Source of the DNA: Tomocerus qinae
Lineage: Eukaryota > Arthropoda > Collembola > Entomobryomorpha > Tomoceridae
Reading direction: 5' to 3'
Length of the DNA stretch: 64,000 nt
Assembly (NCBI GenBank): GCA_020055645.1
Contig: CM034546.1
Coordinates: forward strand, 31,930,001 to 31,994,000
Both the position numbers and the translations under genes were made by a program. A model generated the notes under the pieces. The model was not told the origin of the DNA. It worked only from the letters and a program-made list of their open reading frames with translations, and did not search any database. This document shows positions 6,824 through 40,071 of this stretch, piece by piece. Numbering within the stretch: the first letter of the stretch is position 1; each line of letters opens with the position of its first letter.

Positions 6824-7297
6824 CAGGGCATGATAAAGGCAAAAGGCTACCTTTTTGCCTTTTTGGTTGCCTTTTTGCCTAGCAAAATTAGCAAAAGGGT
6901 AACCTTTTTGCCTTTTCGGCTGCCTTTTTGCCTAGCAAAATTAACAAAAGGGTAGCCTTTTTGCCTTTTTGGTTTCCTTTTTGCCTAGCAAAATTAGCAA
7001 AAGGGTAACCCTTTTGCCTTTTTGGTTGCCTTTTTGCCTTGAAAAATTAGCAAAAGGTTAACCTTTTTACATTTTTGGTTGTTTTAAAATAAATGAAATA
7101 AATTGCAATTTCTATGTTATACAGAATAAAAGTCATAGAAAATGGTAATATTATCGTGTCATGTGAAAACAAGGTTTGTAACAACCTCGTATTTATTTAT
7201 AAATCAGCTTCACATGTAACGAATGTCATAGGGAAAAGGCAAAAAGGTACAAAAATGTGTCTTTTCCTAGCGAAAAGGCAACCTTTTTCATGCCCTC
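6824..7297. mobile_element. hAT-type MITE with internal minisatellite
   Basis: Begins CAGGGCATGA and ends in the near inverse TCATGCCCTC. It is flanked by 8 bp duplications GTAATTTG (6816-6823) and GTAATGTG (7298-7305), 7 of 8 matching. It is 474 bp with no coding capacity. About 240 bp inside is a 53 bp tandem repeat. The paralogous position downstream of the second gene copy (about 12850) lacks it, so it inserted after the local duplication. Confidence 0.85.
6832..7080. repeat. 53 bp minisatellite (GCAAAA / GCCTTTTTGCCT)
   Basis: Units start near 6881, 6934, 6987 and 7040, giving about 4.6 copies. Each unit holds two GCCTTTTTGCC blocks and the inverse GCAAAAGG motif, so the array is rich in small hairpins. 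It is built from the subterminal sequence of the surrounding MITE. Confidence 0.9.
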
Positions 7298-7764
7298 GTA
7301 ATGTGATACAAGATATTTTATAAAATCCTTGGGATTGGTCAAATAACCTAAAGTAAAGAAATTTCATTCTTAACAAGAAAATGAATAGTCCAGATCAGTA
7401 GACACCAGGACGGTGTAAGAATTTCTGAGGTTAAAGGAAGAAACCTCAAATGTTGGTTCTTATCTGTCATTATACTATAAAGCTGAGCTCTTGTGGTTCA
7501 GTGGCTTACTTCCTCCTTAGGTAGTTTTGTAGGTGGAATCAATGCTTTCATAATTATATAACCAATAAATGATAATAGATACTGCATACGTATTCGGTAT
7601 AAGTCCTCAGTCAGTACTAAACATTCTTCTAGTTTAGTTTGTAGCAGTATTAAAAGTTCATGTGTTCCAACGTTAAATTTTATTAGTTAAATAGAGTAGT
7701 TATACATTCATTATCAATAGATTTAAAAAAATTATTTTTTAAGAAAATGGTCATTTAGTTGAGA
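7298..7764. other. 3' flank of the proximal duplicated gene
   Basis: No gene is visible. The stretch aligns in pieces with about 12870-13470, the 3' flank of the distal paralogue (for example the TGTGGTT..AGTGG..TTACTTC run at about 7490 and 13100). It is therefore part of the duplicated block. Confidence 0.6.
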
Positions 7765-10700
7765 CTATTTATCATCATTGTTAGTAGATACATATTGAAC
7801 AGGGTCACCTCCATTGGGTGGCAGATCTGTTGCAAAATTAGTCTTTGTCATCGGTTTACCTACACCGTCTGGCCGCTCTTCACGGAGTAACACACCGCGA
7901 ATTTGTCTCCATTTCGGTGTTAATGGTGAACCAATATAAGCTCCTTCCATACAAGAATCCAGATAGATACTCGCACCTCCGCTAACAAATGCTCCAAAAA
8001 GCTGTCTGAATACATCATTTGATGTGTCTGAGTCATCTGCATTAATCCTATTGACAATATTTCATGAATGAATCAGTAAGGGACAATTATTTTAATAAAA
8101 ATTTCATTTAGGCACATATCATTGTCTAAGAACAACTAAACAACGTGTACTTATAAGCTTACCATGTACTCATGATAAACGAAAAAATATCTTCATGGTA
8201 ATTGGCGTGGAAAACCGGTACAAAGGCTGACGTTTGGCCAGGAACGATTCTTGTGCAAAAGGCATTGACAGTGTTGACTATTTTCCAGTGTAGATCTATT
8301 GCTAAGTTAAGGTCGTAATCTATTTCAGCGGCTTCTTTGATCCGGTAAATGTTGTAAGGTTTTGCGTCCATGATGACTTTCACTTTAAACGGAAACAGGT
8401 ATAGCTTTCTTTGCATATGTGTTATTAACTAAATAAAACAAACAAATATATCATGGTGCTCATTATCAAAACTTTTATACACGTTCCCCAACTCAGATGT
8501 TGTTGCTTGTGACACGAGAGAAGTGCCAGTATTTTTATAATATGGCATTTGCATTTTGAAAATATGAAATAAGTACAAAATATTAAAACTAAATGCGGCA
8601 TACGTCAGTTATCTGTATCGGAGATGTATTTGAGTTGGACAATGCCTCCTCGACGCGACTAATTACACCCAAAATGCCGAGATTACGCACACGACGAAAA
8701 TCTAGGCGATTTCTATCATTTAACCCGTCTCGACAAATCTTCAAACTTTGTAAGAATTCATTATTTAGTCCCCACTTATCCTTTGGTCTTTTAGCGTTGT
8801 CTTTCCAAATATCCATGAGTGTGGGCGTTTTCAAAGCTTCCAGTAAATAATATTCCATTATTCGATTGACGGCAGGTGCAAGCAAGGGGGATACTTGAGG
8901 GCATGCTTTGATAAAAATCTCTTCCACCAAGTGCATAATTTCTAACCTCCAAACTCCTTCCAGCCTCTGAGCATAAGGAGGATCACCAGTAAAGGAATCA
9001 TCCACCAATCCATTAGGTCTTACTTCACCATGCCATTCAGTTCTAGCAGTCCCCATAACGTGGTTCAAGTATTCACATACCTTATCATTGCCATTGTCAC
9101 AACTGTCTATATTAAATTAAAATGTTTTTAATGATTGACTGCATTATAACAATTCAAAACAAATAGACCAACTTGGAGGTTTTGGAATTTCAGGTGAACA
9201 GTCCGTAGCATCGTATCGAATGTTTGCGAAATTAGTATTATTAGCGTCTGGACCATGACTGGGGTAATTTGGATCATTGGGGAAATAGTAGCCAGGATAT
9301 GGAAATAAACCATAGGTCGGGGGTAGATAACTATTCGTTGGAGAAATCGGGTAGCCTGGGTAACCTGGTTTAGGTGGTTTTCCAGGTGATCCAAAATTGG
9401 TTAATAATTGTGGATCAATTATTCGAAAGTCGATCAATTGACTAATATTTAGATTTGTGCTGCCAGGTATTATATTTCCATAATCTTCATCTGGACAATC
9501 GTACCATGTGTAGTCCGTAGTACTTAAATTCATAAATAACTTGCCGAATTCTGGATCCGAAAATGGCTCTTTTACTGTACACACATATCCAGTATTATCA
9601 GTATCCACTGCAGTTGGTCTAGGGACAAATGTTACGTTTATTCGGAGTGGTGCAATGGAAAGACAATATGCCTTAGGATTATAGGTTAGCGTATGGTAAG
9701 GTGAACATGGATCAGTTACAGTTGGTACACATGGTGTACAGGATGTAGCGGGTGATGTTACTACACATGGTGGTATTGGTCCGCTTTGAAGTTTCCCAGT
9801 TGGTACAACCATGAAAGCGAAAGAAGCTCCGGTAAACCGAAAAACTCCGCGCCTATAATTAATATATGCAAACTTAGATTCATAGTATATATCCTTGAAG
9901 GCATACGGTAGTCGTCTGAGTTTCCAAATAAGGTTACCGCATAAATCTGAAAAAGAATGGTAATATGTTAAAACAGAATATGTTTATAAATAAATTGTTT
10001 ATGTATTTTACTAGTTCCTCGCAGTACTTCTATTGAATTTCAAAAGATATTTTCACGTAACATTTAGTTTAATTTCGAAATATTTTAAAATAATCCCAGT
10101 GCGTAGTTCATTGCAAACATTTATTTTTCCCTCTTTTCATGGCAGTTTCAAACTATTAGAATTATGTATTATTTGATTTTTTTTGTATTAAGGTTGGTCT
10201 TACTGTTACATCTAAGAACTTATATTACCACTAACCCTACGAAAAATAAATACATATATACAGGTATAATGTAGGTAAATTTATTGTTTTATCACGACTA
10301 TAATATAGTAATAGTTAATTTAAGTTCGAAACAAATTCAAAAATTGGTGATGGAAATAACCCGAGGAATGTGATAAGGTCTTTTAATCGATGTGGAGGGA
10401 CTACGTGACGATAATAGGCTTATTTTTTGTAATATTTAAAATACAATAAAAATAATGGAAGGAATGGAATGGAATTATTCAATTTAAAATGGCATAAACT
10501 ATTAAAACTCGTCTACCTTCTCTCCAGTAACCACAGTATCCTTATCCATTACTTGCGTTTTTGGATCCTTGGGTCTTATGTTGAATGTCTTACACTCATG
10601 TTCAAAAACTTGAATTTCCGTCGGGTCAACAATAAAAATTCTTTTACGATAATTGTAATTAGAGTATTCGACTACGGGTTCCAATTTTGTGTGTACAAAG

Positions 10701-11092
10701 GCTCTGTGGAATATAACAATGTGGCACAGATGTCATTACAACGACCAAATTAACATACCTACATATTTGAATCAATCTCCTTGTTATATTACATGCATCC
10801 AAAATAATAAGTATTAATAATAGTGAGTGGTATTATTCAGAACGTAACTTACGGCCCATTAATACAAAGTATTCCTTGTAGTCCTCTTAAATCAACCCAT
10901 TCAGCATTACGTGTATCCAATATGGGTGCATCAGTCTCATCCCTATTTAACCTGACTGTGACATATAACTCATAATAGTCAACGAAATTGCACACTGATT
11001 TACTAAAGCTGTAACTTACAGTTCTTTTAAAGATATTCGCAAGTACCTACCAGTGTTATAAAAAGTCGAATATATATTATATTTCTCCACAT
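7765..11092 (-). pseudogene. Proximal copy of unknown secreted-protein gene, frame-broken
   Basis: Six exons correspond one to one with the intact paralogue: 11092-10853, 10703-10517, 9946-9173, 9106-8604, 8428-8163 and 8047-7765. Exons 4 and 5 have exactly the same lengths as their partners (503 and 266 bp). Two differences break the frame. A net 4 bp gain in the signal-peptide part of exon 1 (about 11050-11075) leads to an early stop. One base is missing in exon 3 (about 9896) where the intact copy reads DDYRMPSKEM. The exon 3 donor is also weakened (AAGTTGGT against AGGTAGGT). Downstream exons stay open and well conserved, so loss is recent, or one of the breaks is a sequencing error. Function is unknown in both copies. 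Confidence 0.75.
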
Positions 11093-12183
11093 ATCTACGG
11101 AGTTACTTATTTATAGTATGAGTCAATGTACTTGCTCTTCACAGTAATAAGGAAGTAACAAATCATAAACACAGCATTACAAAAGTATCTAATTAAATAA
11201 CTCTTTTTAAAAAAGCGTATGTTAACTATCTAAGCTTGATGAAGTAAAACATTTGCTCATTGAGCACGTTTTGTAAATAGAAATCAATCTAGGTATTTAG
11301 AATGTCTGAGAATGGGTGCAAGAACGTATTTAGGTGCTAGAGCTAGACCCCATAAATATTTTGAAACGCACTAGATATTGTAGATATTAACAGGTTTTTA
11401 TCAACAAAAGATATTTAATTCCAAATTGGGAAAATATAATCTCATTTTCATATGACATCAATTTCATGTATCTCATTTCCGACCATTTTCTAATCTGATC
11501 GAACGCTTTTGAATCTGTTCGAGTATTTCCGAATCTTTTTTTTTTGCTATAATGAACCTTAGGATCTGAGATTATTTTATGCATGGTTACAGAAATCTTT
11601 CACTGCACTACTGAAATGAACTTTTTCTTTTTAAATAACCTAAAATTAAATCTGCCGAACTACACATAAGTGGGTGATGACAGATAAATCACGTATTGAG
11701 ATTGAGAAGGGGTATTGCTCCACCCTAAATCTACAGATAAAGATTATTTTGTGAAAGAAGATTAAAAATATCTTCTTTTTTACAAATATATTGTCCTAAT
11801 TTGTTTGATTTATGCAATACCAATTTTTAGAATTTAGCATGCCCTAGTTGCAATTTCAAGATACGCCCTTTAATGTGTGTATTTATTATTTAGTATATGT
11901 TTATAACAATTAAATAGTAATAAAATTAGAATTTGTAGTAATACAGCTATCGTCAATTACTCCTGGATTTTACTACAATCGAACTGAAACGTGGGTATGC
12001 CTGAATGCATTTTCTTCCTCATTGCTTTACGGTTAAAACTTCGGCTACGTACACATCCGGACTCGGTCAACAACATTTTCAACTTTGTATATTTGGCTCA
12101 CATTATTTGGAATTCTATTGAACGTTGAATACATTTTCAGTGACTGCTAGTACTTACAGTAAATAAGTAACTGTAGAATACTG
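11093..12183. other. Upstream flank of proximal copy, with insertion
   Basis: Flank at 11093-11314 and 11875-12180 aligns with 20520-21030 upstream of the distal copy, for example the shared GTGTGTATTTATTATTTAGT run at 11874 and 20727. The segment at about 11315-11874 is absent from the distal copy and interrupts AATG, which is found at both of its ends. It begins GGGTGCAAGAACGTATTTAG and ends in an inverted CGTATCTTG-like motif, so it is probably a 560 bp non-autonomous element. No gene is seen. Confidence 0.6.
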
Positions 12184-12343
12184 ATCAAGAGCGTATCCAG
12201 AACACAAGTTAGGGGGTGATTGAACATGTAACAAGAATTTTCTTATGTATAAAAAAACTTTTTATCAATTTTGAGAAAATTTCTAGTTTTTTGGGAGGTT
12301 AAGGGGGTGCTTTATCACCCTAGCATCCCCTAATTACCTCATT
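12184..12343. mobile_element. Short element fragment at duplication junction
   Basis: Starts AGCGTATCCAGAAC and carries inverted GGGGTG/CACCCT blocks, ending CTCATTGATGCC. It sits exactly where the paralogous flank stops and the HHAT exon 1 fragment begins. GTATC(T/C)AGAA-like ends recur at about 15340, 33590 and 49540, suggesting one interspersed family. Confidence 0.45.
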
Positions 12344-12520
12344 GATGCCCAAAAAGGCAAATTAATCTGATGAAAACAACTAAATTCGCTAAAAGTTTAA
12401 TTTCAGGTAAGTAAGATTTATTTAAATCGTCATTTCTCATTTTTGTACGCCTATACTTTATTTTAAAACTTCTAGGTCTATATTTGTATTTATATGCAGT
12501 TGATTAAGTGAATAGTGGTC
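12344..12520 (-). pseudogene. Duplicated fragment of HHAT exon 1
   Basis: The minus strand reads SYLPEIKLLANLVVFIRLIC, against SYLPESKLLVNLIVLIRLIC in the real HHAT first exon. The copy then runs directly into the element at 12343 and loses the rest. Homology continues into non-coding sequence upstream of exon 1 (12520-12960 against 6500-6820 and 7306-7400). It has no downstream exons and cannot encode the enzyme. Confidence 0.85.
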
Positions 12521-13471
12521 ACGCAGAACAGAGCGACAGAAATTAATGATCAATTGTTTACTGTTTTTCCTCTTTAGTTTTTATACACTTAATACAATGT
12601 CACTATTTTGTGTGTTTGTAATGTATTTAACCTTAGAAATAATACTACAATTTCCACCTCATATTGTCTAGCCATTTCATAAGACTGATTTAGATGATCC
12701 TTTGATAACATTTTTTGGTGTACATGTTCCGATTTTGTAACTTGATTTAAATATTGCAACATTACCGTTCAGAAACTAACATGATCCAGATTAGTACAGG
12801 GAATAACCAAAGTCTGTACATAAGGAATGCAAATTGACATTTTTTCAGTTTTTAATTTTTATAAATCCTTAGAAACGGGCAAATGACCTAAAATTTACCC
12901 TGAAGTGAAGACAACTTCATTCTTAAAAATCAGAACATCTCAGGGGGACATACATAGTAACTTACGAGAAGCGATTTTTCGTATGTCTAATCACTAGTGA
13001 TCGGGACTGTGTTTGAATTTCTAGGGTTTAAGGAAGAAACCTTAACTGATGCTTCTTATCGGTTATTACTTAAAAACTGGGCTTCTGTGGTTTAAGTGGT
13101 TTACTTCTTTCTTAAGTGGTATTTATGCATAGCTTTAATAGTTATGAATAATAAATTAAATCAAATTACATGTGATTCGCAAATATGTGTGTGAAGTTAA
13201 ATTAAATGGTAATTTAACTCCTGTACTCTAGATTAGGTTATACATTATTACAATTAAGGCACAGAAATTCATTTTTCTATTTTACTTATACAAACTTAAT
13301 GGTGAGATTTATATATGAATGCATTCCTTGCTAAATCTTCTCCGTAATTCGTAGCCATACACTGAAGGGAATTCAAATGCCATGTTTTGCAGAAAAAAGT
13401 ACTTTATACATACATGACCAACATATTAAAATAAAAACTTTATTTTTTAGGGAATGGTAATTTAGTTAAGA
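12521..13471. other. Paralogous HHAT-upstream / gene 3' flank
   Basis: No gene is visible. 12521-12960 is the second copy of the sequence between HHAT and the first secreted-protein gene, without the hAT MITE at the matching position. 12960-13470 is 3' flank of the intact copy. Confidence 0.6.
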
Positions 13472-16400
13472 CTATTCATCAACATCAACATTGTTAGTAG
13501 ATACATATTGAACAGGTTCACCTCCATTGGGTGGCAGCTTTGTTGCAAAATTAGTCTTCGTCATCGGCTTACCTGCACCGTCTGGCCGCTCTTCACGGAG
13601 TAATACACCGCGAATTTGTCTCCATTTTGGTGTTAATGGTGACCCAATATAAGCTCCTTCCATACAAGCCATTAGGTATCTACTCGCACCTCCGTAAACA
13701 AATGCTCCAAAAAGCTGTCTGAATACATCATTTGATGTATCTGAGTCATCTGCATTAATCCTATTGACAATTTTTCATTAATAAATCAGTAAAGGATGTT
13801 GAGAAATTATTTTAATTAAAATTCCATTTAGATACACATCATTACAATTGAACAACACATATCGATAGCTTACCATGTACTCGTAATAAATGAAAAAATA
13901 TCTTCGTGATAATTGGCGTGGAAAACCGGTACAAAGGCTGACGTTTGGCCAGGAACGATTCTTGTGCAAAAGGCATTGACAGTGTTGACTATTTTCCAGT
14001 GTAGATCTATTGCTAAGTTAAGGTCGTAATCTATTTCAGCGGCTTCCTTGGTTGGGTTAATATCGTAAGGTATTCCGTTCATCATGACTTTGACATGAAA
14101 CGGCAACGTGTATTTCTTATTTTGCAGACGTGATACTAACTAAAAACAAAAAAATGTATAACGGTGCTAATTTTTAAAACTGTTATACACTATTCTCACA
14201 TAGTTGTAATATGATGAATTAAAATTGAAATCGCCAGTAACGTGTTTGTTAGTGACAATGACATAATGTCATTGACATTGGAGTGCTAGTATTATTATTA
14301 TTTTATAAATTATAATATATTATGGCCTTTGTATAAATTAGTAAATTAGAAAATATGAAATAAGGACGAAGTATTATGCCAAAATACCTTATTTATCGTA
14401 TTAGGGGGTGTAGTTGGGTCTGCCAATAACCCGTTATAGAATTTAATTTTGTCCAAAGTTTCAAGACTACGCACACGACGAAAATCTAGGCGATTTCTTT
14501 CATTTATTCCGTCTCGACAAATCTTCAAACTTTGTAAGAATTCATTATTTAGCCCCCATTTGTCCATTGGTCTTTTAGCGTTGTCTTTCCAAATATCCAT
14601 GAGTGTGGGCGTTTTCAAAGCTTCCAGTAAATAATATTCAATTATTCGATTGACGGCAGGTGCAAGCAAGGGAGATACTTGAGGACATGCCTTGATAAAA
14701 ATCTCTTCCACCAAGTGCATAATTTCTAACCTCCAAACTCCTTCCAGTCTCTGAGCATAAGGAGGATCACCAGTAACAGAATCATCCACCAATCCATTAG
14801 GTCTTACTTCACCATGCCATTCAGTTCTAGCAGTCCCCATAACGTGGTTCAAGTATTCACATACCTTATCATTGCCATTGTCACAAGTGTCTGTATTAAA
14901 TTAAAATGTTTTTAAGAATTGTTAGCCAGAGTTCAACCAGCCCGTGAGTATACAGTTGCTAGGGGTAAAAGTGGCTAGTGGGCGGGTAAATTGTTAGGTA
15001 GATAGTGGGCAAAAGGGGCAATTTAAAAGTCAAAATGGGGCTAAGTAATACCGTAAAGGATGTAAAAATTGGCGCAAATTTTTGAATTTTAATTACTTTT
15101 GCCCACTACCCCATTTGCCTGGGTAGGTGGGCAAAATGGAAAAAAGCTGGCTAAAATAGAACTCTGTTGATAGAAAGCATGCATCCAGAGGGGAGACATA
15201 AATATTGGGCTAGAGCACCACTAAATTCCAAGCCAAAAAGGGTTTTTGTCCGAGAAGGATAAAATTCGGAAAATTTTTGTTTATTTTTGACAAAAAATCC
15301 TCTTTTTCTTGAAAAAGGGGAGCTCTAGCCCCTGCCCCCATTCTAGATACGTTCTTGATTAACCGCATTATAACAACTCATAAGAAAGTAACAAATAGAC
15401 CTACCTGGAGGTTTTGGAATTTCTGGTGAACAGTCTGTAGCGTCGTATCGAATGTTTGCGAAATTAGTATTATTAGCGTCTGGACCATGACCACCAGGGA
15501 AATTTGGATCATTAGGGAAATAGTAGCCAGGATATGGAAATAAGCCATAGGTCGGAGGTAGATAACTATTTGTTGGAGAAATCGGATAGCCTGGGTATCC
15601 TGGTTTAGGTGGTTTTCCAGGTGATCCCAAATTGGTTAATAATTGGGGATCAATTATTCGAAAGTCGATCAATTGACTAATATTTAGATTTGTGCTGCCC
15701 GGTATTATAGATCCATAGTCTCCATCGGGACAATCGTACCATTTGTAGTCTGTGTTGGTTAAATTCGTAAATAACTTGCCGAATTCTGGATCCGAAAATG
15801 GCTCTTTTACTGTACACACATATCCAGTGTTATCAGTATCCACTGCCGTTGGTCTAGGGACAAATGTTACGTTTATTCGGAGTGGTGCAATTGAAAGACA
15901 ATATGCCTTAGGATTATAGGTTAACGCATGGTAAGGTGAACATGGATCAGTTACAGTTGGTACACATGGTGTACAGGATGTAGCGGGTGATGTGATTACA
16001 CATGGTGGTATTGGTCCGCTTTGAAGTTTCCCAGTTGGTACAACCATGAAAGCGAAAGAAGCTCCAGTTTTAAAACTAAACACTGAGTACCTCGAGCTAA
16101 CATATGCAAACTTAGAGGCATAGTACATTTCCTTCGAGGGCATTCGGTAGTCGTCAGAGTCTCCAAATAAGGTTATCCCGAAAATCTAAACAACAATAGG
16201 TAGGTAAGTAAAATACCAAGTACCGTTTTAATTTTTTAATTGGTTTGCTCAAAATTAAATAGTAGGGGATACCCGGATAGTCTACCCGCATATCTTTGCA
16301 GATTTGGAAGGAAACGGGGGAATAGACTAGTTACGGTCTTTTATTCAGTTTGAAATCAATATGATAAACAGTTATGTGACAACTCAAAGGAAACGGAGGA

Positions 16401-19400
16401 CGAAACGAAAACCCGCTGCTTAAGGGTGACTTCCCTTGCGCAGAAAACAGGTCACAGTCACTTTACAGCTAAAATTATATATTCTAAAAATTGACTGGCT
16501 AAGGAACCTGAATAGGGAATTTTTGAAAAATGTAATTTAAATTCGAGAAATCATTTTTAGAAAATAAAAAATTTTAGTAAGTAATCTGCCACGTTAGATT
16601 TTTTTTAAATTTTAAATTGTAGCAAAGGCCAAGTACTATCTATAGATTTTTGAACATTGCTCTTTGTACTTCTATATCTGTACGCTTATCCAAGGAGATT
16701 TCCTACTCAAATACATTATGAGTACATGTGGTAGTCCAGAAGAGCACGGGTGCCAGTAGCGCTAATGGCTAGTCCACAGGAGCACTGCTCTTGGGGCTTA
16801 GCCATAGGAGCTATCGACTTTAGTCCATAGGAGCAGCTCTGATTTCTGAATTATAAATATTATTATTAGTCATCATATAATTAGTCAGTAGGTTAATATT
16901 GCATGAAAATACTTTGGACACAGTAAAATTAATAAGTAACATCATTAAATAGACAAGTGAATCAGAGTAAAGGAGATTAATCGCAGTGAACATTAATACA
17001 ATTATTGTTGCCTACATGACACTTGGTACTACAAGGAATTTTTTTTCCTGCATGCGCATATTTTAGTTCCACAACTGCAAATTAAGACTCTGAAATATGC
17101 TGTACTTGGAATACTCGACGTCCGATACCTAAGCCTACAGCTGGGTGCCCGATTTATGCCAGCGGTCCTATGAACAGAGTGCAAATTGACCTAATCGACT
17201 TGAGGTCTAAAAGTGACAGTGAGTACAAATGGATCACTTACAATTTCAATTACAATGTGATAAAAAGGAATCATAGACTCATGGGTAAAATGGCCGCTAA
17301 CTTCTATCAAATACATAAGTGTATTAAGGTCCTTCACTTCCCACAATGGTCAATCTATTTGTAAATGTAAGACTAGTTGTGGAACTAGAATTTGCGCAAT
17401 CAGAAAAAAGTACCTTGTAGTACCAAGTGTCATGTAGGCAACAATAATTGTATAATGTTCACAGCGATTATTCTCCAAAGCATTATTAACCAACTATTAG
17501 CAATATTAACCTACTGATGTATTATATAATGACTAAAAATAATATTCCAATATATAATCGCAGACTGAGAAAAATTTCCTACCTATATAACTATGTATCA
17601 GAGGTGGGCGCGGCCCGGCCCGCAGGCCGGGCCGGGCCGGGCCGAAACAGCCGGCCTGCACATTTTTCGACAAAAGGCCGGCCGAAGGCCGGCCGAAATT
17701 TTTAATATTCCTATCCAGGCCGGCCGAAGGCCGGCCGGTATCTAACGTAATTTGATAACAGGCCGGCCGAAGGCCGGCCGGTATTTGATGTACTTGATAA
17801 CAGGCCGGCCGAAGGCCATTGGGCCGTATTTTAATGTTAATGGTACCAGGCCGGCCGAAGGCCAGCCGATTTTATCGAAATATTACCAGGCCGGCCGCTT
17901 TATCAATGCTGCTCATGTGATTAGTATATATATACTCACGTGATTAGTATATATATACTCATGTGATTAGTATATATATGCTCACGTGATTAGTATATAT
18001 ATACTCATGTGATTAGTATATATATACTCACGTGATTAGTATGTATATACTAACGTGATTAGTATACATAATATATACTCACGTGGTTAGTATATATATA
18101 CTCTCGTGATTAGTATATATATACGCACGTGGTTAGTATATATATACGCACGTGGTTAGTATATACGCACGTGGTTAGTATATATACTCACGTGGTTAGT
18201 ATATATGCTCACGTGGTTAGTATATATATACGGAGATGGGCAAAAGTAACTAGGAGATTTATACTGTGTTAGTAACCAATCTAACTCCAGTTCGGGATAC
18301 CGGGAACCATGGCAATACTAACACTCCTTGGATTGTATTTTTGGACACTGCTATGCATAAGCCCTATGGCCTAGTTACTTTTGCACATCTCTGTATACTC
18401 ACGTGGTTAGTATATATATATACTCACGTGGTTAGTATATATATATACTCACGTGGTTAGTATATATATACTCACGTGGTTAGTATATATATACTCACGT
18501 GGTTATAGTATATATATACTCACGTGGTTAGTATATATATATGTATACTCACGTGGTTAGTATACATAATATATACTCACGTGATTAGTATACATAATAT
18601 ATACTGTAATGAAGCTCCTCACTACGGGGTTATGGGGATGAATGTAGCTAGTTCAGATAGTATGAGCAATTGGTAGGTCGCCCAGGCGCCAGGATGACAT
18701 GATGACAATGACATGACCGACGAAATAATGACGACTCACCACTCTTGGACTACATGTCAACGGCCAACTATCCAATCTTTATTTCAGACTTCTTCCTCCG
18801 ACTCGATCTCTGTGAGTCTCTATCCGTGACTGAGTACTCTTTCATACATTTACATTGCTTTTATTAAGCTACAGACTCATTCGGCTGAGCTCACTCACTC
18901 TTATTGGCTACGCCAATATTCAAACATTCCTCTTAGCGCTATGACTACTTTACTACTAGAGTACATACTATTGCAGGACACAACATGATACTACTTACAC
19001 CTAAATAACCATTACAATACTCACGTGATTAGTATACATAATGTATACTCACGTGGTTAGTATACATAATATATATTCACGTGATTAGTATACATAATAT
19101 ATACTCACGTGGTTAGTATACATAATATATACTCACGTGACTAATGCATATCTAATCACGTGACTTTTTTAACTGGCATGTTCAATTGTTATTATAATTA
19201 CTTATCGTAATCAGCATAAACTGTATAAAATGAATCTCAGGCCGTGCCGGGCCGGGCCGAAATCGCGCGGCCTGACATTAACAACGTATAGGCCGGCCGA
19301 AGGCCGGCCGAAATTTTTAAAAAGTACTTGTAGGCCGGCCGGAGGCCGGCCGCGCTGTTGTATACATAGTATCAGGCCGGCCGAAGGCCGGCCGCTCAGA

Positions 19401-20519
19401 AATTTTTTTGCTATATGCCGGCCGCAGGCCGGCCGAAATTTTTAAAATTTTTGAATGTACATATTCGGCCCAGGCCGGGCCGATGAGTGTTCAAAAAAAA
19501 ATGGCGGCAGGCCGGGCCGGGCCGGGCCGAAAAAATATTTGCCCACCTCTGCTATGTATGTCTGGTAGGGCAAATTTGAATTTTACCGCGTGGTTCCAAG
19601 GATTTTATTACTAAATAATACCTTTTAAAATTGAGTCGCATATGCTGGAGCTACTAGTTTTTAATAAATGCATACTGTTAATGCAAAGAAATCAGAACTG
19701 CTCCTATGGACTAAAGTCGATAGCTCCTATGGCTAAGCCCCAAGAGCAGTGCTCCTGTGGACTAGCCATTAGCGCTACTGGCACCCCTGCTCTTCTGGAC
19801 TACCACATACATACCTATCTATTTTTGGGGTAAGTAGTCCTTAAATTCTGTCTTATTTGTAATATTTGAAATACAATAAAAATAATGCATAGAATTTAAT
19901 TGTGTAGTACATATTTAAAACTCGTTTACCTTCTCTCCAGTAACTACAGTATCCTCATCCAAATGGTCTGGTCTTTTATTCGGGTTCGGGGGTCTAATGT
20001 TGAATGTCTTACACTCATGTTCAAAAACTTGGATTTCCGCCGGGTCAACAAAAAAAATTCTTTTATGATAATTATCATCATAGAACTCTGAAATGGTTTC
20101 CGCTTTTGTGTGCACAAATGCTCTGTGAAAGTAATAAAGTAGCACAAATGTTAAATTATTACTACGACCAAATTAACAAGTTTATATCTTTGCAGCATTA
20201 TCTCCTTCTATAATACTGATTCAAAATAATAAATGCTATTAATAACAGTGAGTGATAGCATTCAGAACGTAACTTACGGCCCGTTAATACAAAGTATTCC
20301 TTGAAATCCAGATGATCTTAAATCAGCAAACCCAGCTTCACGTGTTTCCCATATCGGTATGTTAGTATCATCCCTACTTGACCGGACTGTGAGATACAAC
20401 TCATAATAGTCAGCGAAGTTGCACACTGATTTACTAAAGCTGTAACTTACAGTTCTTTTAAAGATATTCGCAAGTATCAATGGTAGGAAAAGTCGAAAAT
20501 ATATTATATTGCTCCACAT
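13472..20519 (-). CDS. Large secreted protein of unrecognised family (intact copy)
   Basis: Exons: 20519-20278, 20122-19930, 16185-15405, 14890-14388, 14139-13874 and 13760-13472. All junctions are GT/AG and phases agree (2274 nt, 757 aa). The start at 20519 gives a signal peptide (MWSNIIYFRLFLPLILANIF). Exon 3 encodes a Cys-rich stretch (PPC, SCTPC, DPC, YC) and then a Pro/Gly/Tyr-rich linker with GSPGKPPKPGYPGYP (residues about 330-385). Exon 4 starts DTCDNGNDKVCEYLNH, followed by a helical, Trp-rich block (EWHGEVRPNG, EGVWRLEIMH). I do not recognise the family. A signal peptide without an obvious later membrane span suggests an extracellular or structural role (inference). Intron 2 is 3744 bp and filled with nested mobile elements, which may affect splicing. 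The proximal paralogue is broken. Confidence 0.85.
14927..15166. mobile_element. 240 bp hAT-type MITE in intron
   Basis: Begins CAGAGTTC and ends GAACTCTG, with flanks TTGTTAGC (14919-14926) and TTGATAGA (15167-15174), 6 of 8 matching. Inside, GTGGGCAAAA-type motifs recur on both strands. The matching intron of the proximal paralogue lacks it. Confidence 0.75.
15175..15352. mobile_element. Short interspersed element next to the MITE
   Basis: Inverted GGGCTAGAGC / GAGCTCTAGCCCC blocks lie at the two ends, and ATTCTAGATACGT lies at the right end. It is absent from the proximal paralogue's intron, where ATGTTTTTAA runs straight into the conserved TTGA..GCATTATAACAA stretch. Confidence 0.5.
16850..17570. 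repeat. Foldback with about 200 bp arms
   Basis: The left arm (about 16850-17085) reappears inverted at about 17380-17570, including TTGTTGCCTACATGACACTT and TAGGTTAATATTGC. The spacer (17090-17370) has no recognised gene. Confidence 0.75.
17605..17893. repeat. GGCCGGCCGAA-type GC-rich array (left)
   Basis: GGCCGGGCC runs, then AGGCCGGCCGAAGGCCGGCC blocks recur every 40-60 bp. Each block is a self-complementary hairpin. This is very GC-rich inside otherwise A+T-rich DNA. A matching array lies at 19228-19533. Confidence 0.9.
17915..18603. repeat. About 23 bp minisatellite carrying CACGTG
   Basis: Units of the type TACTCACGTGGTTAGTATAT, with A/G and length variants, are repeated some two dozen times. 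The array is interrupted by a 163 bp element at 18231-18393 and continues beyond the LTR at 19017-19155. Most units contain the palindrome CACGTG next to alternating TA. Confidence 0.9.
18231..18393. mobile_element. 163 bp MITE inside the minisatellite
   Basis: Ends are CGGAGATGGGCAAAAGTAAC and the near inverse GTTACTTTTGCACATCTCTG. The target duplication cannot be read cleanly because the flanks are TA repeats. The ends resemble hAT-type CAGAGATG termini. Confidence 0.7.
18605..19016. mobile_element. Solo LTR (LTR retrotransposon fossil)
   Basis: A 412 bp block begins TGTAATG and ends CATTACA, flanked by ATAC on both sides (18601-18604 and 19017-19020). There is no internal region or second LTR, so this is what recombination between two LTRs leaves behind. 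The superfamily cannot be told from the LTR alone. Confidence 0.75.
19228..19533. repeat. GGCCGGCCGAA-type GC-rich array (right)
   Basis: Mirror of the left array: GGCCGGCC hairpins spaced by short A+T-rich stretches, ending in GGCCGGGCCGGGCC runs next to the right terminus of the hAT element. Confidence 0.9.
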
Positions 20520-24594: not shown

Positions 24595-24826
24595 ACAAGA
24601 TTCAACCTTCTATGGACAATGAAAATCGGAGAAAGAAGATTAGAGATAAGGAATATAATATAGCGCCGAATTGGTTGATTAAGCACGTGTAGGGACTGAG
24701 GATACACCTATACGGCGTATAGGTATATTCCTCGACGTGGTCAATCGATCATTAAACTGGTATTATATTACTTATCTGTAATCCTTTATTCTTGCTCTAC
24801 ATTGTCCATAGAAGGTTGAATCTTGT
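24595..24826. mobile_element. Foldback MITE, family copy 1
   Basis: Ends ACAAGATTCAACCTTCTATG and its inverse. The whole element is one imperfect palindrome centred on ACCTATACGGCGTATAGGT (about 24715). Related copies are at about 44320-44560 (whole) and 43168-43282 (right half). The 24595 and 44320 copies lie in the same place relative to the two receptor genes, so this insertion is older than the duplication. Confidence 0.8.
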
Positions 24827-30076: not shown

Positions 30077-30929
30077 TCACTCTATAATATAATCTTCTAG
30101 TTTGAATTGCATTTCAAAATTTCCATAGGGATGCTTGTTTATATCATGGCGTGTTAATAATATAATCTTCTTGTTCGGGTTGTGTAGGGAAAATTTCCGT
30201 AGGGATACTTGTTTATATATATTATATCGTGTGTTAATTTGTTGAACTGAGCGCTGTTCTGTGCTGTGAGATATGATGATGAGCACTTTGAGCACCGTTC
30301 AGGGCTGTGGGATGTAATTATGAGATTTTCGTGCTTTTAGATGCTTTCACGAATTTATTATTTCCGTATTTTGATTTGCTTTTGTTTCTTGGTGACATTG
30401 TAATTGAGAAAACTAAAACTGTTGCTAAATTTCGTGTTTTCGTATTTAATGCGTTGGTAATTGCATTCACTTTTCTTTTCAAAAGCTGGAACTTTTTTTG
30501 GTTGTAATATCCGCCACCTTCAAAGTTCGTCACAATTTGCTACAAGCGCTCACTGGTAAGTATGTTTGAAGATTAAAATAATACTCTTTTATTTTATGAT
30601 TTATTTGAAAGTAAAACTTGAATTCAAAATGCGTGAGTAAAAGATTTATTCGACGTGAATCCATTTTAACATTTTACAGTCTAAAAGATATTTCAGTCTA
30701 AAATTTTAACATTTACATCGCATCATAGATATATTGTACCAGAAATCTAAACCCACTTTATAATACATATATTTGATTAAAAGTGATTCAATTTATTAAT
30801 CATTGTATATTTTTTATTTCAGAAACAGCTTTTTTAAAAGTTAAACAAAATTTAAAACAAAATTTTTTAATTTATCATTAAATGTTAACAAACCGCTTGG
30901 CGGTTACTTGCCGAAAGGCAGGCTTGACC

Positions 30930-31520
30930 TCTTAACGGTCCATTGCCAATTCAGGCTAACTTGACCTCTAAACGGTCTATTGCCAATAAAGCTAACTTGA
31001 CCTCTAAACGGTCTATTGCCAATAAAGCTAACTTGACCTCTAAACGGTCTATTGCCAATAATGCTAACTTGACCTCTAAACGGTCTATTGCCAATAAAGC
31101 TAACTTGACCTCTAAACGGTCTATTGCCAATAAAGCTAACTTGACCTCTAAACGGTCCTTTGCCAATAAAGCTAACTTGACCTCTAAACGGTCCTTTGCC
31201 AATAAAGCTAACTTGACCTCTAAACGGTCCTTTGCCAATAAAGCTAACTTGACCTCTAAACGGTCCTTTGCCAATAAAGCTAACTTGACCTATAAATGGT
31301 CGTTTGCTAAAAAGACTAACTTGACTTATAAATGTCCTTTGCCAAAAAGGCTAATTTGACCTTTACACGGTCCATTACCAATAAAGACCAACTTGACCTG
31401 ATCACGGTCCATTGCAACTAAAGACTAACTTGATTTCTAAACGGTGCATTGCCAATAAAGGCCAATTTGATCTTCAAACGATCCATTCCCAATAACTGCC
31501 AACTTTGTCTTAAACGGTTC
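30930..31520. repeat. 36 bp minisatellite, about 14-16 units
   Basis: Units of the form CTAACTTGACCTCTAAACGG plus TCTATTGCCAATAAAG are near-identical from about 30950 to 31290 and degrade to about 31520. Stray units reappear at about 33985-34040. Because 36 is a multiple of three, both strands show long repetitive open frames. These are not genes. Confidence 0.92.
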
Positions 31521-33739: not shown

Positions 33740-33970
33740 GGAACTAACGCGCGCGGTATCTCAGCAACCAATGGACCCGATTTATCCCAAAATCAATAGG
33801 GATTGACAGTGGTCCATGTCCATAGGCATTGTTTTTGCCAAGTTTGGTCAATATCTGTCTTTGCATTCGAAAGATATCGTGGGTACAGAAGGATGGACGT
33901 ACGGACAGACTGTGCGGTTCTGTAAGCTCGGTTCCTCAGGCAATGAGCTAAAATTACAATAAAAAACACT
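33740..33970 (+). repeat. SINE-like interspersed repeat
   Basis: Contains CGGTATCTCAGCAACCAATG, a GGACGTACGGACAGACTG run, and ends GCTAAAATTACAATAAAAAA. This layout is seen in short retroposons of invertebrates. There is only one copy in the window, so the family cannot be confirmed here. Confidence 0.35.
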
Positions 33971-34176
33971 CAATTTTCTAATTAATCGCTTGACGCTACA
34001 TTGCCAATTAAGGCTAACTGGGTCTTAAAATGATCCATTGTCAAGTGATGGCAAGTATAAATAATGGTGGTTAAAAGTATCCGAGTCAAAAATGTGGTGG
34101 GTAACTGTGACCCTAGACCGTACTAAGGCGAAGTTTTGGAATATTTTTTGACTATATCAAATACATTCTACCCATC

Positions 34177-34617
34177 CAAGGTGTCGAGTGTGCCGTAAAT
34201 GCCGCATGCCGTAAATAGAATTTACGGCATTTGGTATTTGGCGGCATGCCGTAAATGCCGTAAATTATTTTTTACGTTTTTAGCTGTATTTATACATAAA
34301 TTGATGTGGTAAGTGAGTAAAAACACGCTAAAAGTGATTTCATATATTAATATTGTGTATTAACATCATTATATGCTACTCCTTGTGGCTGAGAAGCTTT
34401 GAAAAGTGAAAACTCATTTTATAACTTATGACAGTTGTCATTTATTATAAAATGATCAAAATTATATTTTTTGTTCTTCCAGTAGTTGAATATTACTATT
34501 AAACTGTCAATGCCGTGTATTATGTATTTTACGGCTTTTACGGCATTTACGGCATTTACGGCATTTACGGCATGCGGCATCTGAAAATAATTTACGGCAT
34601 GCCGACTTTATACTCTG
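34177..34617. mobile_element. 441 bp hAT-type MITE packed with GCCGTAAAT motifs
   Basis: TACCCATC is duplicated exactly at 34169-34176 and 34618-34625. The ends (CAAGGTGT and ATACTCTG) are imperfect, but the subterminal TTTACGGCATGCCG blocks are inverted at both sides. GCCGTAAATGCC / TTTACGGC occurs at least eleven times. Confidence 0.8.
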
Positions 34618-34821
34618 TACCCATCGTTCAATATTGCCCCGGAATGCACACTAGCTTTATTTATAACAGGACTTGGGTCCTGTGACCGGTACATTATATT
34701 AGTGATAAACCCAATTGAATGCTGGTGTAATTGGTTTACTAGAAAACCATAATTCTTACAAAATTGTTTGTAGATGCACTAGCCCCATGTAGTACAGGAC
34801 CTGGGTCCTGTGACCGCCTAG

Positions 34822-36212
34822 TAAGCTAATAAGCTACTTCATTGGACGTTTTAAATATTTCATCACTTACCTTGCATTTCTAAGATTTTCCTTCATATAA
34901 TATTGAACTCGTCCTGTCCAAGGATTATCCTGCAATAAAATGTATACTTGTAATACAGTATGTTAATATTAGCAGGTGGTTAATAAATAAGGGTAGTTTA
35001 TCCATTTTAAGGCGACCGAATGCGTGACTACGTCGAGCATATTATGTACATAAAATATGAGTATAACCTTGTGTGAAAACTTCGGTTGGATTCTACGTAA
35101 AAAATAATAAATTACCTAGTCAGATAACCACCTAACTTTCATAAATGTTAAATATTAAATATTCTTTAATGTTATAGTTGGCTATGAATTAGTAAATAGG
35201 ATATAAATATTTTATCTATGACAGTAACACAGAAATAAGGCAGAAAAAATGTTCTGCAAGAAACTATTCGTGCTTTCCGTCCGTTTGCTGCTATCGAAGT
35301 CTTTACTTAATGTTTAGTTTATACATAATATTCTTTTGGCGACTGACAGCCACGAAACAGAAATTTAGGTTGCTTTAAATTAGCGTTATCATAGGAATGA
35401 GTATAACTGATAAACGGGCTTTGAATAGGCTGATATAAGACAGGCAAACAGTAATTCAATTAGGATCTTATTTGGATTGGATATCAGACTAATTATGTTT
35501 TTAGAGAAATCTACGACGTCAATGTTAGCTTTGGGCTTTGAGCATACTAAAGACTCGTATTATTAAAATACATTCAAACCAAAACAATTTATTTAACGGG
35601 ATACTGAACTAATTTTAAATGCTCCTTAATTACAATTGAAACTTGGCTTTCATTTTTAACTAAATATGTAATCTACGCTGTCTCTAAAATTACACAAATA
35701 AATATTCGTTGCAAATTATGCATTTTTAAATAGTTAACGTATCTTTAGATAATTTTGGAAATTAAATAAATGTAAACGCCGTATTTTACATTTGTCATAA
35801 GACGGAAAATCCGCTCCGTCAATTATTAAATATTATTTTTTCATAGGGAGACATTCGAGGCAGGCTAACTGCTCTCAGGATTTGTCAATCCCTATGATAA
35901 GCATTCCAGTCTTAGTTCAAAAGTCTCAGGGAGGATTTCTCAGAAACTTGAAACTTCTTGAAACTGGCAAAATATTATAGACTGTACTGGTAAAGAATTA
36001 ATCCATGGAGTGTGCATTAGCTCAACAACTCTGTCGGAGGTCCAGTTCTCTTGCTAGACCCCGAAGATTCTGTTGTGACATTGTTTGGTTATCAATATTC
36101 AATTGTCAATTTCAGTTTCCGTACATACAGTGCAGTAGTGCATAGTAGTATAGTGTACTACTCTTTCCAATTTGTCATATAGTAATACACAATGTGACTG
36201 AATACCGATGCG
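34822..36212. other. Continuation of the duplicated receptor flank
   Basis: 34822-35870 aligns with 48350-49420, and its first part with 43760-44110 (AAGCTACTTCATTGGACG in all three). 35870-36212 has no counterpart. No gene is seen. Confidence 0.7.
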
Positions 36213-37886
36213 CAGGGCCGTCCCGAGGCATGTGCCACCCGTGCACCCGCACTGGGCGGCAAATTTTAGAGGGCGGCAAAATTTTTGGTGTAGACTATAT
36301 AATTTGGCACTTTATTGAAATTAGAAAAGTTAAAATATTGGATGAAAATAGAATATTATAATCTGAATAGGAATATTATAATCTGAATAGGAATTAGAGA
36401 AATATTTTAGTCGCAAGAAATCCTTGATCTTCTATTTGTTATAGCAAACCAAAATAAGGTGATGATTGATTACTGTGATGAAACATGAGCGCTAAAACAA
36501 AAGACTGAGTTAGATTAAGGTTCAGGGGTGGTTTAAAATACGGGGAAATTCAAAGAGGGGCAGGTAATGGGGAAGTATCTATGGCTACGATTTAAAATAC
36601 ACAGAGCCATAGAAATTTACTCTATGACAATACAGCAAAATGAATAGGGCATAAAAGTGACGATTTTTTTGGGAAACTTAAATCTAGTCCGAGAATATTG
36701 GTCGTAGAAAGACGAAGTTGGTCTCTGAAAACGCAGAAATAGTCAATTTATAGCAGCTTGCACTTAGATTCCTAATTTTTACCTCTGGTTACGAGATAGT
36801 AATTAAAATTGCAATAACTCGCAAACGAAGGTAAAAGGTAGGAATCTAAGTGCAACCTGCTATAAATTGACATTTTCTGCGTTTTCAGAGACCAACTTCG
36901 TCTTTCTACGACCAATATTCTCGGACTAGATCCAAGTTTCCCAAAAAAAGTTAAGAGCGAATATGATAGTCAAGCCCAATCGTCAATAGAAACCATACCT
37001 ACCTCATAATTGAATTTAAAAATGGCAAATAAAGAACAAGAGCAATAAGAGCATTCAAGTCTTTAATATAAATGTTTTTAGAAGTAAACTGATATATGTA
37101 GTTGTCACTAAAGAAACGGTCAGATAAATTGTCTAGAGTATAGGCGGAAAAGACAGCATGAAGAAGAATTACTGTGCAGTTTGAAAAATTCGTTGGATAA
37201 GTTTTTGATAAAAGTTCCAAAGAATGACAGTAATGAGAAAGCCCTGAAAACTCTGAACACCTGAAACACCACTGAACACAAGCTTTAGATGTCAAAAACA
37301 CCAAGGCCGTATTGAGGGGGGCATTGGGGGCAAATGGAAAAAGAAAAAAGGAAATTTTTTCTCAAAATACCAAAAAAAATTCGCGCTTCGCGAGATTTTA
37401 TGTGCATTTTAGGCTATTTTTGACTTATTTTAGACATAATAAGCCAAAATTTTTAGCGCCTCGCGCGAATATGCCTAATATATATAGTCTTATCATATCA
37501 TTGCCCCCTCCGAACGAAATCGACTTCTAAATACGGTACTGGTCAACACACCATCCGTATCCGAAATTGGCCCAACAAATGACATGAAGGAGGACTCAAA
37601 ACTTTAATTGCAAATGCCGATATGTATGTAAAAAAGCATTTTTGTGGTTTTTTGTTTCTTTTTAGTTACCATTGTAAACAAAAATAAACAGTGTCCCTTG
37701 TCCCTTTTTAGGGAAAAGAGAGAGGTGGCATTATTGCATTATAATTAATTTTAAGTTCAATTAATTTTAAAATGTATATTACTACTACATGTGACCCAGA
37801 AATAAAATTGCCAACCAGAAATAAAATTTTTATTAAGGGCGGCATTTTCTATTTTGCACTGGGCGGCATTTAACCTAGGGACGGCA
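36213..37886. mobile_element. Non-autonomous hAT element with perfect 8 bp TSD
   Basis: CCGATGCG is duplicated at 36205-36212 and 37887-37894. The left end is CAGGGCCGTCCCGAGG, the right end CCTAGGGACGGCA. CTGGGCGGCA(AA/TT) motifs repeat just inside both ends. Inside are a foldback (36663-36950), a short element with GGCCGTATTGAGGGGGGC (about 37304-37545) and an open stretch of 101 codons (36999-37304, minus) of unknown origin. No transposase was seen. Confidence 0.82.
36663..36950. repeat. Foldback with about 130 bp arms
   Basis: GGGAAACTTAAATCTAGTCC at the left is mirrored by GGACTAGATCCAAGTTTCCC at the right. The arms include GAAAGACGAAGTTGGTCTCT and its inverse. The same outer flank as the foldback at 32474-32810 follows on the right, so both belong to one family. 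Confidence 0.85.
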
Positions 37887-38372
37887 CCGATGCGTATTAC
37901 TAATCCAAAGGATTGAATTACTACTGGTACCACCAACTACAACCACAACACTCACCTTTCATTTTGTGAATAAATGGACATTTCGCAGGTAAAGGTTGCA
38001 GAGATAGAAAAATATTTCCGACATGGGGGAAAATTCTAGGGATGAAAAATATTTTTAGAAATTGAAAACAGCTCCAGGGACAGAATTTTTTGGGATTAGA
38101 AATATTCCAGGGATGAAAAATATGGTTTTGTTTACAACATCCCTAAATAATCCCACTTTATCGTCAACATTTTACTTAACGCATAATAGCATTACATTAC
38201 ATATTAACAATAAAAACTATAAAATAAAATAACCAATTAAAAAATTAAAAACTCAAAAAGAGACGCGAGGAAAACTAGAAAACAAGGAAAATCAAAGTTT
38301 CTGGTTAATTAAAATATGGCGTAATTAAATAAATATTTATGCCCAAGTCGCCCGGTTGAAATTACGGCTAAA
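37887..38372. other. Spacer with repeated GGGATGAAAAATAT
   Basis: The motif (A)GGGATGAAAAATAT occurs at about 38038 and 38110, with CATCCCTAAATAATCCC at about 38140 inverted. This is possibly a short degenerate MITE. No gene is seen. Confidence 0.4.
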
Positions 38373-40071
38373 TCCTAGTATACCGACGCTTAACGGAATA
38401 GACCGATATATAGCTCATTCGAAAGATCTTGTCGAGTACATCACGAATATGGTATTGGTTTTTGGGGGAACCCCCCAAATAAGAAAGTTATGGTCGGTTA
38501 AAGTTGAAAATATGACTATTTCGATGCCTATATTTTTAGAAAACGAAGGGTTACAAGTTCTTTAGGACATCGTTGTTTTGCTCTTCATGGTGAATTGACA
38601 TGTAACTATGGCAACGTAGCTAATTACAGCATGCAGGTTTGGTTTTGTAAAATTCTAAATTACGCTTTAACTTCTATTTTGGGTTTTTTCATTGTTCTAA
38701 CTTCAATTTTCATCATCATCATCAGCCTAAGGTTTCTCGGGTATTAATTAACAACAATATACCAGTGTTGAGGGAGTTGGCAATGGGCCCGTATTTGAGG
38801 CCTGCGCCCAGTACTATCACTTTGTAGTGAGGCAGTACACCCCATATAACATGTATACATATATACAGACTCATGACAATGTACTTATTCGCTGCAAGCA
38901 ATTTAACTGGTTGTAGAAGGCCAAATTGGCCATTATCATTTTACTACATTTTAGGAGAACCTTTTTGAATCAGTCAACCAATTTTCAATAATATTATGAT
39001 TTACATTTTTTGTATTATTTTCTTTACTAATAAACGTAATAAACCTAATTAAAATTGATGAAAATTAAACATGGAACGTGGTCACATTTAGCTTTTTTTT
39101 AAAACAACTAATTAAAAATGATGAAAATCGAAGTTACCATAATGAAAAAACCCAAAATAGAAGTTAAAGCGTAATTTAGAATTTTACAAAACCAAACCTG
39201 CATGCTGTAATTAGCTACGTTGCCATAGTTACCAGTGTACAAAATTTACCACTTTTTACCCTTTTTTACCATCACAGTGGTAAAAATGCACTTAATGGTA
39301 AAAATGCATTTAATGGTAAAAATGGTAAATTTTAGCGATTGATTAGACAGCTGAGTACAGATACACTAACTAGACTTCCTAAAATATAAGTTTTAAAACT
39401 ATATTTTCTATGAAATATTTCCAATTAGCCCCTTAAGCAATTAAATTAATCATATTTATTTGATTGTACACCAAAAATTATAAAATAATGAAGAAAAAAG
39501 ATTGTATTTGGTATCGCCCATTTAAAATTGATGCTAATTTAATTGCAATTAATTTCTCAATCGGCAAGGGTTGCTAACGCCCCCATTGGTTGATTCCTAC
39601 TCTGATTGATGAACACTTATCAATTTGTGACAACAATGATCATCTGCTAAGCTATTTCATACTTTGGCACCGAATTTTATTCAAAATTCAAACACGAAAT
39701 TTAAATTAAACTATTTTTTACCATTTATACCATTTATACTACTTACCACTACTTTTTAGGTAGTGGTATTTAACGTTAAATACCATTAAAAACCACTTAC
39801 CACTGGTAAGTGGTAAATGGTATTTTGTACACTGATAGTTACATGTCAATTCACCATGAAGAGCAAAACAACGATGTCCTAAAGAACTTGTAACCCTTCG
39901 TTTTCTAAAAATATAGGCATCGAAATAGTCATATTTTCAACTTTAACCGACCATAACTTTCTTATTTGGGGGGTTCCTCCAAAAACCAATACCATATTCG
40001 TGATGTACTCGACGAGATCTTTCGAATGAGCTATATATCGGTCTATTCCGTTGAGCGTCGGTATAATAGGA
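38373..40071. mobile_element. Large foldback element (about 350 bp arms)
   Basis: From TCCTAGTATACCGACGC the left arm (to about 38715) is repeated inverted at 39115-39224 plus 39835-40071, ending GCGTCGGTATAATAGGA. The right arm is split by a hAT-type MITE (39233-39834). The core (38720-39110) has no transposase. Arms differ by only a few percent, so the element is fairly young. Confidence 0.85.
39233..39834. mobile_element. 602 bp hAT-type MITE, perfect TIR and TSD
   Basis: Ends CAGTGTACAAAAT and ATTTTGTACACTG are exact inverses. ATAGTTAC is duplicated at 39225-39232 and 39835-39842. GGTAAAAATG(C) and TACCACTT/ACCATTTA motifs recur many times in the first and last 120 bp. It sits in one arm of the surrounding foldback, and the other arm shows the empty site. 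Confidence 0.92.

Follow-up and report, generated by a model that had tools for sequence, protein, structure and literature searches.

Family-specific subterminal motif arrays in hAT transposons and MITEs of Tomocerus qinae, with a period near 42 bp in most array-bearing families

The window, by which we mean the whole stretch of 64,000 nucleotides that was analysed (G000:C1:31930001-31994000), comes from a genome of 334 Mb in 115 contigs. Its open reading frames include some that we take, by eye, to be putative ionotropic-receptor-like, C2H2 zinc-finger and SET-domain-like sequences. It also holds five transposable elements, E1 to E5 (Table 1), which a preliminary description had presented as hAT-type MITEs filled with copies of a motif matching their own ends, each family with a motif of its own and all with the same architecture.

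Table 1 Positions of the five elements and their internal arrays in the window
Feature	Length or units	Positions	Remarks
E1, hAT-type MITE	474 bp	6824..7297	TSD at 6816-6823 and 7298-7305, GTAATTTG/GTAATGTG, 7/8 matching
E1 53-bp tandem array	4.6 units	6839..7081	sister copy with one unit fewer
E2, hAT-type MITE	240 bp	14927..15166	TSD TTGTTAGC/TTGATAGA, 6/8 matching; GTGGGCAAAA dispersed, marginal in the window copy
E3, non-autonomous hAT element	1,953 bp	17599..19551	TSD CTATGTAT/CTATGTAT, exact; TIR CAGAGGTGGGC
E3 left GGCCGGCC array	9 exact sites	17676..17896	spacing 11/31-32 bp, 42-bp lattice
E3 right GGCCGGCC array	7 exact sites	19291..19434	spacing as in left array
E4, hAT-type MITE	441 bp	34177..34617	TSD TACCCATC/TACCCATC, exact; GCCGTAAA blocks, opposite orientation at the two ends
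E4 right 9-bp tandem array (TTTACGGCA)		34528..34573	unit number varies among copies
E5, hAT-type MITE	602 bp	39233..39834	TSD ATAGTTAC/ATAGTTAC, exact; TIR CAGTGTACAAAAT
E5 18-bp tandem array (TGGTAAAAATGCACTTAA)	2.6 units	39278..39324	tandem repeat in window copy

All five elements are multi-copy, with first-look candidate lists of 464 (E1), 425 (E2), 91 (E3, left end), 442 (E4) and 1,990 (E5), from each of which 40 were scored. Two features of the hAT superfamily, 8-bp target site duplications (TSDs) and short terminal inverted repeats (TIRs) of the CAG...CTG type, were found in the set. Within the window, TSDs were exact in E3, E4 and E5 and imperfect in E1 and E2, while at further copies they were exact in 28/30 E5 loci (24 distinct TSDs), 20/20 E4 copies when the boundary was searched (19/20 at fixed boundaries), 14/18 E2 copies and, by a strict scan, 10/29 other E1 loci, the rest of which were truncated, diverged or inexact. 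TIRs were clear in E3 and E5 and extended over 8 bp in E2; that of E1 is CAGGGCATGA, with GAGGGCATGA at one end of the window copy, and the E4 termini showed weak inversion only (CAAGG... versus CAGAG...). The ends of E5 had 1,360 matches genome-wide with at most two mismatches, compared to 1 for the reversed pattern. All five thus stand as genuine families of hAT-type MITEs, with many genomic copies and 8-bp duplications, as had been proposed. A de novo scan for hAT MITEs with exact TSDs, which covered 279,939 bases, returned 43 candidates as against 7, 0, 0, 0, 0, 0 and 0 with displaced TSDs, and nearly all of the 43 were copies of E1 or E5 from the earlier searches; a relaxed version of the scan was dropped as noisy (81 candidates versus 30, 19, 22 and 13 with displaced TSDs).

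We assessed motif excess by comparing the commonest 8-mer of each element with 500 Markov simulations and 1,000 genomic segments. Enrichment was clear in E1 (11 copies, a count reached in 0/500 simulations and 9/1000 segments), E4 (11 copies; 0/500 and 3/1000) and E3 (26 copies; 0/500 and 0/1000, the segments used for E3 being 1,400 bp long and thus shorter than the element), fair in E5 (6 copies; 0/500 and 31/1000), and marginal in the window copy of E2, because its commonest 8-mer occurs only 3 times (11/500 and 90/1000). The commonest 8-mer of E3 sits in an inner TATA-type array, and GGCCGG or its complement is found at 46 positions. Motif copies lay within 120 bp of an end without exception in E4 and E5, for about half of the copies in E1 and for 30% in E3; in E2 this is trivially so, the element being only 240 bp long. 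The motifs therefore match the elements' own ends in the sense of a subterminal location, and not in that of the terminal tip. That each family has a different motif was borne out, while a shared architecture proved too strong a statement: E3 has a 42-bp lattice, which is not shared by E1, E2, E4 or E5, and the others have a 53-bp array (E1), a 9-bp array (E4), an 18-bp array (E5) or dispersed motifs (E2).

The preliminary description had allowed that only these single copies might carry arrays. Other copies of E4, E5, E2 and E3 have them too, so this doubt falls away for those four, and in E1 the long array belongs to one duplicated pair, with the motifs recurring elsewhere. The E1 motif, GCCTTTTTG, occurs in both orientations. 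The 53-bp array of E1 expanded late, in the window copy and its duplicate: a sister copy 450 kb away has the insertion site in common and differs in length (421 versus 474 bp) by one 53-bp unit, and extra units were seen only in these two copies. The 18 other copies of E2 that were compared have 2-6 occurrences of GGGCAAAA each. Among E4 copies, the number of GCCGTAAA occurrences (7-17) was correlated with length (429-495 bp; r = 0.93), lengths fell on 9-bp steps from 441 bp in 14/20 copies, and left and right blocks were both variable. E5 has GGTAAA motifs in the terminal 120 bp on both sides. The two E3 arrays are inverted relative to each other, the middle of the element (about 17912-19140) is taken up by a nested insertion together with a CACGTG/TATA array that is unrelated, and genomic matches to the left end include lengths of 312, 354 and 270 bp, that is, 42-bp steps. 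Since copies of E4, E1 and E3 differ by whole-unit steps, units have been gained and lost in tandem.

Transposase-bearing partners were sought among part of the 117 loci matching PF05699, the hAT C-terminal dimerisation domain (E 3.5e-17 in locus L081 and 1.1e-16 in L082). The left end of E3 matched four loci near such domains, and one transposase-bearing relative, at C4:33449674-33458159 (8,486 bp), is delimited by the exact TSD TTGGGCAT and the TIR CAGAGCTGGGCA and has GGCCGGCC arrays at either end. The search for a partner, which the preliminary description had called for, gave a transposase-bearing relative of E3, with the motif shared at both ends; for E1, E2, E4 and E5 it gave none among the loci examined, their ends being absent from the examined part of the 117 loci apart from one inserted E5. 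That E5 end lies 2.6 kb from the transposase at C1:19424610, which was rejected as a partner since this E5 copy was inserted separately, with an exact TSD of its own; the comparison covered the first 100 of the 1,360 E5 ends (C1 up to 22 Mb). An E1 copy near the PF05699 match in L016 was rejected likewise, as an insertion with its own TSD, AACATAAT. The C-terminal half of L081 matched Hermes transposase structures (E 1.2e-12). The Pfam profile of the BED zinc finger, PF02892, matched L082 at E 0.0063 and 17.0 bits, below the 20.6 cut-off, and gave no match in L081.

A second and a third family of transposase-bearing elements were closed by exact TSDs, at C1:12365491-12373787 (TTTAAACC; motifs GAGTAAAG and GAGTTGAG) and C1:14275797-14286114 (GTCTACAG; motif GATGACTT). 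Array pairs flanked 5/5 copies of the L106 family and 8/8 copies of the L107 family, oriented alike at the two ends, with one further 5'-type match of the latter unpaired. By their coordinates, four same-direction array pairs of the L082 family and inverted pairs of the L114 family had no PF05699 match between them, and an L106-type MITE at C5:23645958-23647154, with the exact TSD GTTGCAGT, has 42-bp arrays on both sides. Subterminal arrays were found at both ends in transposase-bearing and non-autonomous elements alike. Foldback or long-TIR elements carry tandem repeats inside long TIRs, which is not the arrangement seen here, as arrays of the L106, L107 and L082 types share one orientation at the two ends and the transposases are of the hAT type. 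E3 and the L114-type elements have inverted arrays, so that their distinction from the foldback type rests on the transposase.

To describe motifs across families, we examined the 3' flanks of 29 of the 117 PF05699 hits, most of them selected because their open reading frame was long or their score high. An 8-mer occurring at least 8 times in 500 bp was present in 10 of the first 27 flanks, compared to 5/120 control segments of 1.4 kb. The motifs were GGCCGGCC in L081, L105 and L116; GATGTG in L082; TTCGAA, in a short array, in L103 and L115; GAGTAAAG and GAGTTGAG in L106; GATGACTT in L107 and L128; GAAGAGTC in L108; TAATCC in L114; CGGATCG in L123; TGTTGGC in L125, where the array is single-copy; and other strings in L141 and L142. 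Transposase fragments of the three GGCCGGCC loci were 50-61% identical to one another. In 15 comparisons within this clade, identity was 89-99% in motif columns and 63-79% in other columns, with motif columns defined on one sequence per aligned pair and an alignment that may favour them. The earlier proposal that each family evolves its own site fits L107 and L108, whose transposase fragments are 62.7% identical and whose TIRs share the start CAGTGATGGGCG, while their motifs differ and their arrays gave no blastn match at E 1e-4. A global alignment of these two arrays was suggestive of homology, which was dropped because the blastn comparison was empty.

Motif-free autocorrelation gave a best lag of 42 in L081, L105, L106, L123 and L125, 43 in L082 and 41 in L114. 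L107, L128 and L108 had a best lag of 81-82 with 41 second, and L116 had a best lag of 83 with 41-43 next, its 29 matches falling just under the threshold of 30. Best lags away from 41-44 were found in L113 (34), L118 (32) and L126 (22, with 44 second), all counted as misses; the L113 and L118 arrays are inverted pairs, probably inserted foldback-like elements, and were kept among the 12 array-bearing families. Strong periodicity was seen in 13/27 initial flanks, compared to 12/147 control tiles, and in 15/29 after two flanks were added, 14/29 being under the threshold. Seven of the first ten families had periods of 41-43 bp (the GGCCGGCC clade, L082, L106, L107/L108, L114, L123 and L125), and the two flanks fetched later as a test of the period rule gave 44 bp (L141) and 41 bp (L142). 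A period of 41-44 bp was thereby found in 9/12 array-bearing families and 0/12 periodic control tiles (Fisher p = 3.4e-4), a comparison in which the threshold, the family grouping and the reading of 81/82 as twice 41 in L107/L108 were chosen after the data were seen, flank lengths (1.4-2.1 kb) exceeded those of most control tiles (1.4 kb), and the merging of L141 with L106 (common string GAGTTGAG, no blastn match between them) would give 8/11. Lags in the control tiles were 18 (four tiles), 20, 31 (two), 32, 34 (two), 36 and 40, and four of these tiles had a secondary lag at 41-44 with at least 20 matches.

Sites in the GGCCGGCC clade formed mostly 11-bp doublets with the next doublet 30-32 bp on, or 40-42 bp over a missing site, the exceptions being a gap of 46 (E3 left) and a gap of 4 (L105). 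The first site stood 77-78 bp from the tip in 3/6 arrays. Across the six arrays, site positions were in register with a period of about 10.5 bp (R 0.87-0.98) and kept phase across missing sites. Such helical-turn phasing was clear only in this clade; other short periods fitted better in L107 (13.5 bp) and L082 (6.15 bp), and several divisors fitted the exact 42-bp spacing of L106 equally well.

These results give no support to the runaway multiplication of binding sites that was first envisaged: the arrays are orderly, they stand at both ends of three TSD-closed transposase-bearing elements, and their period is 41-44 bp in 9/12 families. Because orderly arrays also occur in transposase-bearing elements, they are not a peculiarity of MITEs. 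We consider it most likely, with a probability of roughly 70%, that the family-specific subterminal arrays in these hATs and MITEs are binding sites of the elements' own transposases, ordered and with a period of ~42 bp in most array-bearing families. The elements themselves are DNA transposons of the hAT type or MITEs derived from them, and the motif arrays inside the inverted termini would be putative subterminal repeats to which the family's transposase binds during assembly of the two ends. The ~42-bp period, about four helical turns, may reflect transposase geometry; array units would be gained or lost through slippage or unequal exchange; motif and DNA-binding domain would change together; and MITEs would inherit the arrays and retain them by need. 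In addition, the arrays seem to act as seeds of longer tandem DNA.

A host protein, such as a transcription or chromatin factor, might bind the motifs in place of the transposase. If a single host factor were bound, a single motif would be expected, whereas the motifs differ among families within one genome and track the transposase clade, and we regard host binding as improbable. Scarcely better placed is the view that the arrays are neutral products of slippage, without function and hitch-hiking on the elements. It would suit the varying unit number between copies, the long E1 array in one duplicated pair and the 12/147 control tiles that are also strongly periodic, but the arrays stand at both ends and are kept in MITEs, the common period is lacking in control arrays, and conservation is higher in motif columns than in the remaining ones.

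We tentatively suggest, at somewhat less than even odds, that a large animal hAT group may combine a fixed ruler with a free password: the ~42-bp spacing would be set by the geometry of transposase assembly and survive deep divergence, the motif would change with the DNA-binding domain, and MITEs would spread with the full lattice. The period could instead have been inherited from a single ancestral array and maintained by concerted evolution and duplication in tandem rather than through selection for the spacing, in which case the motifs may still bind. Most 42-bp families do fall into a single detectable group of transposases (25-63% identity), and tandem exchange is visible among copies. 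Yet the transposase of L114 is hardly related (best E 9.6e-6) and its array nonetheless has a period of 41 bp, blastn at E 1e-4 joined none of the array flanks compared between motif groups except L126 and L142, over 44 bp, and sites in the GGCCGGCC clade remain in phase across missing sites; common descent of the period therefore seems to us unlikely. A common ~42-bp lattice under different motifs would be a constraint on the assembly of the transposase complex that can be read from sequence. For many hAT families, motifs could then be read from genomes and the specificity of each transposase, as well as that of domesticated BED proteins, predicted from them, and MITEs would be easier to connect with their drivers.

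Neither a hAT repeat of 41 or 42 bp nor a shared ~42-bp period under different motifs came up in searches of an open-access library; subscription papers and Repbase reports were largely outside the scope of this search, which makes it weak evidence of absence. The comparisons that follow draw on portions of the cited papers. Hermes transposase binds AAG(T/C) subterminal repeats through BED domains, with 17 and 14 sites in the two ends (PMC10368747). As in our elements, these are short sites of a hAT concentrated near the tips, and they are opposite in sense at the two ends, resembling the same-direction arrays of three families here; in contrast, the first Hermes sites are at the tip whereas arrays of the GGCCGGCC clade begin about 70-120 bp in, and the portion of the paper drawn on describes no ~42-bp tandem lattice (PMC10368747). 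Ac transposase binds AAACGG subterminal hexamers, and Ac/Ds, also a hAT with 8-bp TSDs, has multiple hexamers in the terminal 200 bp that are common to autonomous and non-autonomous elements; many Ds1 elements, however, have fewer than three hexamers, and fixed-period long arrays are not described in the sections considered (PMC3260210). The hAT-derived Kat1 has a TGAATT hexamer six times, with polarity differing between the ends, and its subterminal repeats may enhance cleavage, but it is domesticated and has few copies, and a regular array is not described in that part of the account (PMC4763223). Proteins with hAT-derived BED domains vary widely in specificity: the related domains of hAT-19 and CGGBP proteins have diverse, often CGG-containing motifs, and the motifs of four hAT proteins match their own subterminal regions, although this was a protein-binding-array study and the sections considered give no array spacing (PMC8097297). 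Beyond the hATs, Muta1 and other Aedes MULEs carry tandem repeats in a subterminal position, in autonomous as well as derived elements (PMC5225508), and the tandem repeats of Galileo hold sites for the THAP domain of its transposase (PMC3688188). Both differ from our elements in belonging to other superfamilies and in having the repeats inside long TIRs (PMC5225508, PMC3688188), and Muta1, with 9 copies of 12 bp and an 8-9-bp TSD, differs further in its 12-bp unit and 3-4-bp spacers (PMC5225508). Subterminal repeats of hATs are already known, and the part that may be new is the common ~42-bp period under changing motifs.

Overlapping matches to the 42-bp array of L106, a hAT transposase family, formed long runs at two loci on contig CM034546.1 (G000:C1), C1:86612223-86616889 and C1:32084797-32086677; both appear to be satellite-like DNA grown from hAT subterminal arrays. 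Seven ends of the hAT-type MITE E5 recurred on one strand every ~4.3 kb at C1:17307288-17333107, indicating that an E5 copy is trapped in a tandem array, and eight matches to PF05699, the hAT dimerisation domain, spaced ~2.8 kb apart at C1:61451937-61471616 indicate a tandemly arrayed transposase gene.

The MITEs E1 and E2 each had a near-identical copy ~450 kb away (96% and 100% identical, respectively), and the E1 insertion site was the same in both places, so window 6824-15166 and C1:31482915-31495520 probably represent a segmental duplication. Two pairs of near-identical reading frames, at window 8589-9812 and 14346-16143, suggest local duplication. Within window 17912-19140, the non-autonomous element E3 contained a nested insertion with ends GGAGATGGGCAAAAGTAACTAG...CTAGTTACTTTTGCACATCTCTG. 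A 36-bp array at window 30923-31495 was open as a repetitive reading frame, KANLTSKRSIAN.

Repeat arrays in the window and in the flanks of two hAT transposase loci (L113, L118; transposase orientation)
Array	Position	Unit and extent
Satellite-like	window 1-2483	369 bp, 6.7 copies, 97% matches
CACGTG/TATA arrays, within E3	window 17912-19140	21-28 bp
36-bp	window 30923-31495	15.8 units
L113, inverted tandem pair	about 1050-1640	34 bp
L118, inverted tandem pair	about 1140-1380	32 bp

Five control tiles had periods similar to those of L113 and L118 (31-34). The inverted array pairs at these two loci resemble foldback-type elements.
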